64,000 nt of DNA from Dehalococcoidia bacterium (lineage in GTDB: Bacteria; Chloroflexota; Dehalococcoidia; Lucifugimonadales; Lucifugimonadaceae). Numbering within the stretch: the first letter of the stretch is position 1; each line of letters begins with the position of its first letter. A program made the position numbers and the translations under genes. Below, in pieces: positions 1 to 64,000 of the stretch. The stretch is taken from contig JAJEGY010000006.1 in assembly GCA_022819585.1 (NCBI GenBank), forward strand, positions 47,340 to 111,339, written 5' to 3'. The notes beneath the pieces were generated by a model. The model was given only the letters and a program-made list of their open reading frames with translations. It ran no database searches and had not been told where the DNA came from.

Positions 1-86
1 GGCACCAGCGGCTGTTGCAACATAGACGGCTTTGTAGACGGACACTCCCACAACCAAAATCAACCTTCAACAAATCTTCTAAAAAC

Positions 87-115
87 TTGACATCCCGACA
101 TTGTACGTAGTACAA
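87..115 (+). promoter_or_regulatory. putative sigma70-type promoter for the GC-rich non-coding region A
   Basis: TTGACA at 87-92, then after 18 nt TACAAC (-10-like); resembles the element at about 63235 upstream of region B (acttgacaNcNcCnACAT..tacgta). Confidence 0.45.
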
Positions 116-117
116 CA

Positions 118-1010
118 GTAGACAGAAGCCCGGACCGGCGGCGGTCGGAAAGGGCGACGAGAAACATCGTCGCGTCTTCAGGAAGCGTGCACAACCCTGA
201 GTGACGCCATCGATTTCAGTCTCAGCGGTCTGCAGGCGGGAGCACACATGGAGGGAGGAGAGCAAATGTCCGAACCGACGGCCAAGATCCGCGGCGGCAC
301 GCGCACGAATCTCTCCGCGCCGGTGCCCGCACTCGCCCCCGACGGAGGGCGGAACGACGACCTTAAACAAACCCCGGGCGACGGGGGATCAGGTGCAGCA
401 AGGTACGGATGCGCGGCCGAACTGCGGGACCGCGCCGCGGCTGAGGCGGAAACCGCCGAAGCCGCGCCGGCCAGACGGGATGCCCGCACCCTCTTGACGC
501 GAGAGGGCGCGGCCGGAAGGACGTCTAGTAAAAACGTCCCGACGGATACAGGCCCGGTGAAGATTCGATACGAGCGGTCCCTTATGCCCACCACGTCGTC
601 CGCTTCGGCGGGCGGACGGCCACAGCGCTCAGCTTCCAGTGAAGAAGGAAGTGAAGACGAGAGACACCGGGCAGCCCGCCCGACCTCTCAACAGTCAGGC
701 GGTTCATGGCAACGCCGGCGGCGCTGGAAACCTGCGAAGCGCAGAAAACGTCGCACGCGATCTGGAGACGCGGCGATGATTCGACCATACAGTTCCAGCC
801 ATGACCCATGGCTGCCCTCCCAGGCGGGAGATACGGCCCGAGGACGAAACATTTCGGACGACGAAGATGCGGGGCGTCCTCGACAAGAGGAATATATCCG
901 AGGGACGGAAGGCGGAGGCGCGGATGATGAGGCGCTCTCTCGCTGGAGAGGGGCGGTTCAAACGAACAAAAGGGTCAACCACAGAAACAATCTGAACAAC
1001 AGCTGAAGCA
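118..1010 (+). ncRNA. candidate large structured non-coding RNA (copy A)
   Basis: No protein-like ORF despite open frames. Many perfect hairpins: 154-160/167-173 (GCGACGA/TCGTCGC), 445-449/453-457, 489-494/502-507 nested in 467-472/511-516 (CCGGCC/GGCCGG), 519-524/534-539, 597-603/612-618, 797-803/807-813, 817-821/826-830, 839-846/875-882 (CGAGGACG/CGTCCTCG), 937-941/946-950. A-rich tail. Confidence 0.5.
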
Positions 1011-1192
1011 GAACAACAAGACCGACCAGCACCGGAGGCCATCCCTGATCGGCCTCCCCGAAGCCCGACGGAAAAAACACCCGTCAGGCGATTAAACGCG
1101 CCCAAGCCCCTTTCGCAAAGCGAAGGGGGCGCGTGAGCGCAACGAGAGCGGGGGATGCCCGCGAAAGGGAACCTAAGGACGAACAGCCAGGA

Positions 1193-2008
1193 TTAAACGC
1201 GCCCCTCCGGCATAGTATTCCCCTTAAATCCCGCCGTAACTCCACCATCCACCAACAGCTCCGATCCCGTAATATACGAAGCCTCCTCCGAGGCCAAAAA
1301 ACAGACCGCATTCGCAATCTCCTCAGGCTCACCCCAGCGCCCTAACGGCACCCTCTCAGACCGCCAATCCCTCTCCGAATCCACGGCGTAGATATGCTCC
1401 GTGAACGGCGTGTGAACCCACCCCGGCAACACCGAGTTGCACCGTATCCCAAACTTCGCCAACTGGATCGATGACGCTCGCGTGAAATGCAACATCCCAG
1501 CCCGTGACATCGCGTACGCCGATCCATACTCCCCAGCGAACTTCCCGGCCATCGACGACAAATTCACGATCGCTCCGCCACCAGCATCCGTCATCGCCGG
1601 TATCACAGCACGCGTACCCAACAATATCCCCGTCGTGCTGATCTCCATCACCCTCTTCCACTCATCGACATCCACGTCGTAAAGCGTCCCACGATCCTGC
1701 ATCCCCGCAAGATTCACCAAGATATCCAACCGACCAAACTCTTTCAATGTGCGTTCAACCACCTCACCCCAATTCGCCTCATCCACAACATCCAACCGCG
1801 CATAGATCGCCTCATACCCCTCGCTCCGCATCTGCTCCGCCGACGCCTCTCCCGACTCATCCTGAATATCCGTAATCACAACCTTCCCACCCTCCTCCAA
1901 AATCTTCCACGCCGTACACCCGCCAAACCCCATCCGCTGACCTCTCATCGACGACGCCGATCCCGACAACAACGCAACCTTGCCTTCAAATCTCTTCCTC
2001 GCACTCAT
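1193..2008 (-). CDS. SDR-family NAD(P)-dependent oxidoreductase
   Basis: Rossmann N-terminus plus NLAGMQDRG, SSMAGKFAGEYGSAYAMSRAGM (YxxxS/K-like region) and LVDGGVTAGF C-terminus; start chosen at MSARKRFEGKVALLSG. Confidence 0.85.
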   Translation of the reverse strand: MSARKRFEGKVALLSGSASSMRGQRMGFGGCTAWKILEEGGKVVITDIQDESGEASAEQMRSEGYEAIYARLDVVDEANWGEVVERTLKEFGRLDILVNLAGMQDRGTLYDVDVDEWKRVMEISTTGILLGTRAVIPAMTDAGGGAIVNLSSMAGKFAGEYGSAYAMSRAGMLHFTRASSIQLAKFGIRCNSVLPGWVHTPFTEHIYAVDSERDWRSERVPLGRWGEPEEIANAVCFLASEEASYITGSELLVDGGVTAGFKGNTMPEGRV

Positions 2009-63126: not shown

Positions 63127-63233
63127 GAGGGGAAGAGCGGGGCCAGACGAACTCCCCCAGCGCAAAATCCCAAACAACCAGAACAAAATCCCAATAATCC
63201 CCCGATCCCAGAAATCCCAGTTCAGACAACAAC

Positions 63234-63262
63234 TTGACAACACCAACATACGTATTAATATA
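63234..63262 (+). promoter_or_regulatory. putative sigma70-type promoter for region B
   Basis: acTTGACAacaccaacatacgtatTAATATaga: TTGACA with TAATAT 16 nt downstream (TATAGA also possible). Confidence 0.5.
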
Positions 63263-63269
63263 GATAACA

Positions 63270-64000
63270 GTTTGATCGACAGACTTGCGCCGCGCAACGG
63301 AAGCGGCCACCCCCAGCCCGGGGAACCATCGGGAAAAGCGTCAGCCGCGAAAGCGACTGCGATCAGACCCTCCGAAAGAGGACGAGACCGTAGAGCCGCC
63401 GAAACGGCTGTGGCGACGCCCCCGCAGCGGCTGCCGAGTCGCTGAAAGGAGAACCGGGTCCTGTTGGAAGCGCACCTCGGACCATTGTCTCAGCCGCGGC
63501 GAGCAGGGCTGTCCAGTCGCCGCCGGTCCGGAAGGACCAAGCCGGTCAGCGCCGAAGCCGCAGAGAAGCGGCATCGGCGAAGGGGCTCGGGAGGACGTGC
63601 GTGGATGCAGGGAGACGTCGTATTCGCTCGCCACGGGGACGGCTACAGGTTTCAGGCCGAAAGGCCGATGGAAGGCGACGAACTCGTCAACCCCCTCCGA
63701 GGGGGAGACCCCACGTCCCCTCTCCCGCTCCGCGGGAGAGGGCCAGGGTGAGGGCGCCGTCGTCGTCCGGGCAGGAGCGCTGGCAGCTCCCGCAGAACCT
63801 GGATATGGGACGGATCCTGGTGTCTGCCCCGCCAAACGGCGCAAGTCGACCGCGGATTTACGGTGCAGTGACGCGTAAACGCTGCACCGTCGAGAAGCGG
63901 AGCAAAAGTGCGTAACTCCGAAGCAGGAGCCGTGCAGAGCACACGGCCCTCCTTCGGCCGCCACCGTAAGTCCGAAGGGCGCATCGCAAGGCGATCGCGG
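63270..64000 (+). ncRNA. candidate large structured non-coding RNA (copy B, continues past window end)
   Basis: Dense hairpins with GNRA-like loops: GGTCC-GGAA-GGACC (63525-63538), GCCGA/TCGGC enclosing GCCGC-AGAGAA-GCGGC (63551-63578), GGCC-GAAA-GGCC (63655-63666), CCCCCT-CCG-AGGGGG; shares GGACGGCTACAGG (63637-63649) with CGACGGATACAGG of region A (540-552). Confidence 0.5.
63717..63756 (+). repeat. palindromic repeat family 2, copy 2 (inside candidate ncRNA B)
   Basis: CCCTCTCCCGCTCCGCGGGAGAGGGCCAGGGTGAGGGCG. Confidence 0.85.

Follow-up and report, generated by a model that had tools for sequence, protein, structure and literature searches.

The window, by which is meant the whole 64,000-nucleotide stretch of Dehalococcoidia DNA analysed here, contains near its start a transcription unit predicted to encode a large structured non-coding RNA (87-1104; this unit with its parts and the unit at the end of the window lie on the + strand). 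A gene for a Cro/C1-type HTH (HigA-like) protein (C11:46975-47364) ends at window position 25. The RNA gene opens with a -35 box TTGACA (87-92), the promoter-like element that was noticed in a preliminary description of the sequence and which lines up with the equivalent boxes in the rest of the family discussed below. The -35/-10 spacer holds a palindromic operator, TTGTAC-GTA-GTACAA (101-115), at the place where most members have a LexA-type ACANNYGT box. The weak -10 box TACAAC (111-116) is non-consensus and was not detected by a promoter scan of the window copy; its position is conserved with the members in genome G005, and the string TTGACN18GTACAACAGTA is common to the window copy and the G005 copies.

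The transcript is predicted to span 118-1104, as judged from the promoter position, the conserved 3′ tail and the folds. It comprises a long-range closing helix P1 (5′ strand 161-190; 3′ strand 753-782, bearing the conserved GACGCGGCGATGATTCGA), a conserved middle hairpin GCGCGG...CCGCGC (411-435), a conserved 3′ domain described by the covariance model R1 (592-728), a structured 3′ extension specific to the window copy (786-1010) and an A-rich conserved tail, the presumed terminator region, ending in ATTAAACGCGCC (1012-1104). The preliminary description let the RNA end at 1010, but conservation resumes at 1012-1104, which matches G000:C30:31111-31198 at 73% (G000 being the source genome), just downstream of the R1 copy C30:31376-31506; the transcript end is therefore probably near 1104. 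The element ATTAAACGCGCC follows hairpins that end transcription units genome-wide (window 1090-1104, 1191-1204 and many other loci) and may mark terminators without T-runs in the genus. Beyond the tail, window 1106-1162 is occupied by a short REP-like hairpin repeat (cccctttcgcaaagcgaagggggcgcg...) with about 40 copies in the genome.

Within the transcript lies an open frame of 252 aa (248-1006), which is judged not to be a gene. The earlier remark that the region lacks a convincing protein is borne out, as the frame is without codon-like constraint: in homologs the frame is interrupted by an early stop, is shifted or lacks an ATG. In close paralogues there are indels of 1-2 nt and a stop codon follows after 34 or 48 codons; substitutions among seven of these paralogues are spread evenly over codon positions 1/2/3 (181/195/170). 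No Pfam domain was found in the translation, nor any relative among 85,462 species genomes. The ORF is preceded by an AGGAGAG-like sequence and long frames start from the equivalent ATG in several paralogues too, as would be expected if the product of 248-1006 were a genuine protein, arginine-rich and disordered, with the high GC content giving rise to the hairpins as a by-product. Against the lost frames, the even substitutions, the lack of a homologous protein in those genomes and base pairs that are followed by compensatory changes, such a protein is extremely improbable.

Conserved structure of the RNA

The preliminary description based its proposal on perfect hairpins, and all those listed occur in the sequence: 154-173 (GCGACGA-GAAACA-TCGTCGC), 597/612 (CGTCCGC/GCGGACG), 797 (AGCCATG-ACC-CATGGCT), 839/875 (CGAGGACG/CGTCCTCG) and 467/511 (CCGGCC/GGCCGG). 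Their number alone is weak evidence, being modestly above chance. Compared with dinucleotide shuffles, there are 61 stems of at least 5 bp (48.7±6.6 in shuffles), 18 of at least 6 bp (12.8±3.8), 9 of at least 7 bp (3.5±1.8; 1/100) and 3 of at least 8 bp (0.9±0.9). Folding gives better evidence, with z-scores of -3.39 for 118-790 and -3.19 for the 786-1010 extension. As neither hairpin counts nor z-scores prove a structured RNA, relatives were sought, and the comparative evidence is decisive.

The R1 model covers 132 positions with 39 pairs and matches the window copy with 71.2 bits (E 1.6e-15), the window copy being itself one of the 20 seed sequences. The domain consists of a hairpin (595-620) followed by a junction closed by CAGCGC (623-628) and GCGCTG (721-726), from which three branches emerge (631-652, 660-689 and 698-716). 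In an alignment of 20 members by sequence alone, from which the structure was also derived, the R1 pairs are formed in 89% of cells and 26 of the 39 pairs show double-sided changes; covariation amounts to 0.379, compared to 0.170 for shuffles and at most 0.08 for the slid structure. Among 55 distinct copies, aligned by fitting to the R1 model, which favours the model, 88% of the predicted pairs form, 32 of the 39 have changed on both sides and covariation reaches 0.460 versus 0.163 for shuffles. Covariation, which the preliminary description had named as a check on its proposal, is thus strong. The middle hairpin (411-435) is paired in 82% of cells over 17 sequences, with a covariation of 0.309 versus 0.068 for shuffles.

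P1 closes the RNA, with the ends of the core pairing with one another. Its two strands (161-190 and 753-782) form an inverted self-match of 80% that scores 45.5 compared to 18.3±3.1 for shuffles, and the helix is present in the minimum-energy fold of the window copy. An equivalent helix with subfamily-specific extensions occurs in about 30 members. A first alignment of the P1 flanks in fixed columns was blurred by bulges. The core pairs are nearly invariant, so that P1 is supported by complementarity more than by covariation.

Of the hairpins initially listed, 597-618 proved to be conserved and covarying, whereas 467-516, 797-813 and 839-882 are specific to the window copy and lack covariation support. 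The hairpin at 154-173 is present in the sequence, but it uses the same bases as the conserved 5′ strand of P1, and hence the two are mutually exclusive. The 5′ half and the 786-1010 extension differ between copies and have no consensus fold. Pairs that are strongly conserved while the sequences diverge by approximately 50% imply that the RNA as such is under selection.

Distribution and evolution of the family

A DNA search for relatives of the window copy yielded weak but ordered matches in genomes of the same genus, and the window RNA belongs to a dispersed family of RNAs of about 0.7 to 1 kb in one genus of Dehalococcoidia-class Chloroflexota; the copy number in a genome reaches about 20 or more. 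Copies of R1 were found in all seven genomes of the genus: 21 in the source genome, 17 in G005, which is complete, 14 in G006, ten or more in G002, 6 in G004 and 2 each in G001 and G003, with uncertain numbers in draft genomes because the copies break contigs. Copies in G005, 96% and 84% alike, start with the promoter, end with GACGCGGCGATGATTCGA and are the counterpart of window 87-783. G002 has about 20 such 3′ ends, located mostly at contig ends, which is the signature of an assembly-breaking repeat. Carriers include metagenome-assembled genomes labelled Chloroflexi or Dehalococcoidia (VXSB01, VXTA01, OX638325.1 and JAJEAU01). In the order outside the genus, R1 was found in none of 243 genomes, using fast, stricter filters with which distant relatives could be missed. 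The RNA of about 0.9 kb originally proposed is a structured non-coding RNA, but its unit reaches to about 1104, and instead of standing alone it is one of approximately 21 detected in the genome. Sequence comparison establishes the family as non-coding, multicopy and, by covariation, real, and as apparently confined to one genus.

The copies are flanked by ordinary chromosomal genes, and no recurrent neighbour gene (reverse transcriptase, nuclease, transposase or other protein) was found beside them, in agreement with the earlier statement that no adjacent gene would make the RNA an omega-RNA, HEARO or retron RNA. Phage, plasmid and viral collections gave no family match; 19 viral contigs contained a 16-mer match, none of them with the R1 domain. 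Together, these two negative results indicate that the RNA itself is likely the product. At one locus (L192, G000:C18), a family copy lies directly upstream of a 16S rRNA gene on the same strand.

The site of the window copy is empty in G006, with the neighbouring genes kept (235 bp versus 1285 bp). The orthologous site in G005 (L208:6781-7560) is occupied by another RNA-like unit, which has a similar promoter (ACTTGCAATTAACACACATCCGTATCATAAT) and no R1 match. Other copies are syntenic in G000, G005 and G004. The R1 domains of syntenic copies in the more distant species are 48-58% identical, while most of these copies have a 93-99% identical paralogue in their own genome. In the closer pair G004/G005, orthologous R1 domains are 99% identical compared to 87% for their flanks. 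From the sequences, this likeness within genomes looks like concerted evolution (gene conversion) or replacement at preferred sites. Among the members, the window copy stands alone and has diverged, reaching at best 69% identity to any other.

The empty site in G006, the restriction to one genus and the likeness of copies at unrelated sites, which reaches 96% or more and often involves copies at contig ends, could also point to an element that is mainly selfish and mobile but not autonomous. Its folded RNA, or DNA, would serve its spread by an enzyme acting in trans, and the SOS-type promoter would time mobilisation, as in other mobile elements. Such an element appears unlikely, given that the copies have beside them neither a transposase or reverse transcriptase nor any other protein that recurs, no target-site duplication was recognised, the repeated unit has its own promoter and terminator, syntenic copies persist in several species and the conservation of pairs implies selection at the RNA level. 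That the copies exist mainly through selfish mobility is likewise doubtful, and this would not be exclusive of an RNA function.

The LexA-type promoter

Most copies share the promoter TTGAC-N7/8-ACANNYGT-TAATAT, in the form ACTTGACAA-N-ACANNYGT-N-TAATAT. Among 46 copies, for which the promoter picker gave a small bonus for the motif, the operator is a strict ACANNYGT in 33 and has at most one mismatch in 43. A canonical example is the G005 copy at 417,162, which has a clean ACATACGT box. The pattern TTGAC-N4..9-ACATNYGT-N0..4-TA matches in six of the seven genomes of the genus (19 times in the source genome and 24 times in G002), while the reversed pattern, used as a control, has no match in any genome. 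All matches in the source genome for which the downstream sequence was read start RNA copies, with the exception of one that precedes a 671-aa ORF (L283:1256-3315, G000:C39). This ORF, with a LexA-type box in its promoter, is the only non-RNA pattern match of the source genome and looks GNAT-like by eye.

Two further matches, in G002 and G003, are promoters of lexA, which encodes the principal repressor of the response to DNA damage; its product was identified with NCBIfam TIGR00498 (142.7 bits, cut-off 110.95). The box lies between the -35 and -10 elements of the lexA promoter in all six genomes where lexA was found. Related motifs, ACAT[GC]CGT or ACATATGT, occur upstream of recA, where they are variable and differently placed. 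In a small control of strong, non-RNA promoter-like sites in the fetched loci, the box was present only at the two lexA genes and the 671-aa ORF. Since the operator is common to the family and lexA promoters, the family is probably SOS-controlled, and LexA control of the family is considered likely on this sequence evidence.

The operator could instead belong to another repressor, for example the Cro/C1-type one whose gene immediately precedes the window copy; an unrelated regulon would then share the resemblance to the lexA promoters. The HTH gene ending at window position 25, the different palindrome of the window copy and the G005 group (TTGTAC-GTA-GTACAA, GTTGTAGTACAAC) and the variable, differently placed recA boxes speak for this. 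However, G006 has the HTH gene at the same site without an RNA there, and in six of six genomes the lexA promoters hold the operator at the same spacing, where LexA autoregulation is an established rule, which makes another repressor improbable. The window copy itself is one of the three non-matching copies among the 46: its sequence TTGACATCCCGACATTGTACGTAGTACAAC has another palindrome, with no ACANNYGT even when one mismatch is allowed. The operator has diverged or drifted, and SOS control of the window copy itself is accordingly uncertain.

A unit at the end of the window (63234-64000, cut by the contig end), which the preliminary description implied to be a second copy of the RNA, belongs instead to another family of repeated RNA-like units that shares the promoter type and has no R1 match. 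It has the -35 box TTGACA (63234-63239), the operator ACATACGT (63246-63253) and the -10 box TAATAT (63256-63261). Full copies of this second family, which was observed at window 63180-64000, are about 870 nt long and have the LexA-type promoter TTGACAACACCAACATACGTATTAATAT; the source genome has at least five, which are 83-91% alike. No significant R1 match and no Rfam match were found at its loci. In the recA region of the source genome (L297), the 3′ end of such a unit lies directly upstream of recA.

Comparison with known large RNAs and possible function

Large structured bacterial RNAs are few, and GOLLD, ROOL and OLE are still short of a function. ROOL is encoded by phages or prophages, and OLE is an RNA of about 600 nt with a complex, long conserved fold. 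A cmscan of window 1-1250 and six other member loci against Rfam, as the preliminary description had suggested, found chance matches only and no relative at E-values up to 10; searches of the window and other members at gathering and permissive thresholds likewise gave no family. Membership of GOLLD, ROOL or OLE was rejected, as none of their covariance models matched (E up to 10), and the phage, prophage or tRNA-island context of GOLLD and ROOL was not found, the flanks being ordinary chromosomal genes. Group I and II introns, HEARO/omega RNA, RNase P, tmRNA, rRNA and 6S RNA were rejected for lack of an Rfam match, which upholds the earlier observation that signatures of RNase P, tmRNA, 6S and rRNA are missing; ARAGORN, run on the window, detected no tmRNA. 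Since no intron model matched, circularly permuted group II introns were dropped as well. A literature search covering SAR202 RNAs, large non-coding RNAs, LexA in Chloroflexi and SOS-regulated RNAs returned nothing on the family. The absence of an Rfam match and of codon constraint, together with the strong covariation, supports the initial idea of a new RNA class.

In behaviour, GOLLD and ROOL come closest to the family; both are large RNAs that form RNA-only cages (PMC12286853). The 3′ region of GOLLD is conserved and its 5′ region variable, and expression of GOLLD rises during phage lysis (PMC12286853). OLE is found in extremophilic Gram-positive bacteria, where it acts together with proteins (PMC11332333, PMC9723947). 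The family resembles GOLLD in its large size (0.6-1 kb), in being folded and in combining a conserved 3′ with a variable 5′ part, with a stress-type promoter here versus the rise in phage lysis there, but it is multicopy in chromosomes, restricted to a genus, equipped with a LexA-type operator and without a phage or tRNA-island link. Like ROOL it is a large, ornate RNA without a known protein partner; unlike ROOL, it has no match in phage or viral collections or in Rfam. It resembles OLE in size, complexity of fold and long conservation but differs in lacking a conserved neighbour protein beside its copies and an Rfam match. Group II introns and omega/HEARO RNAs are likewise dispersed, multicopy structured RNA elements, yet the family has its own promoter and terminator and no recurrent reverse transcriptase or nuclease gene. 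With the SOS regulon it has in common an operator in the -35/-10 spacer, of the same kind and at the same place as that of lexA. To our knowledge, no described SOS target is a multigene family of giant structured RNAs.

That this is a family of RNA genes acting as RNA is very probable; the fuller account of a dispersed gene family that acts as RNA, has a LexA-type promoter in most members and is kept alike within genomes is probable. In the proposed mechanism, LexA would repress the family promoters and DNA damage would switch on many copies together. The resulting transcripts, closed by P1 and ending in the conserved multi-branched 3′ domain, would act not as mRNA but as RNA, either in an RNP or in an RNA-only assembly of the GOLLD/ROOL type, and gene conversion or replacement would keep the copies of each genome alike. 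As neither a partner protein nor a conserved neighbour was found, the molecular function is a guess: the best guess would be a machine made of RNA, or an assembly such as those of GOLLD and ROOL, and RNA assembly or an RNP as the mechanism is put forward tentatively. Multiple copies, stress-type promoters and variable 5′ regions beside a conserved 3′ domain might alternatively suit bulk regulatory RNAs of the sponge or antisense type, which would pair with mRNAs or titrate proteins in stress and use the fold as a stability scaffold, but a specific fold is indicated by the size of the RNA and by the conservation of loop residues (GUCUGGCGA, GUUCAAGG), and a regulatory role of this sort is quite unlikely.

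The novelty lies in the RNA class; if the GOLLD/ROOL mechanism applied, the family would be a new member of that kind. That dozens of giant-RNA loci, alike within each genome, form an RNA machine or assembly that is jointly SOS-induced and has no known counterpart is a serious possibility, held at slightly below even confidence. If true, this would add a further class of large RNA, unusual as a multigene family with strong covariation, a probable DNA-damage promoter and apparent concerted evolution, and the LexA link would provide an immediate handle for functional tests.
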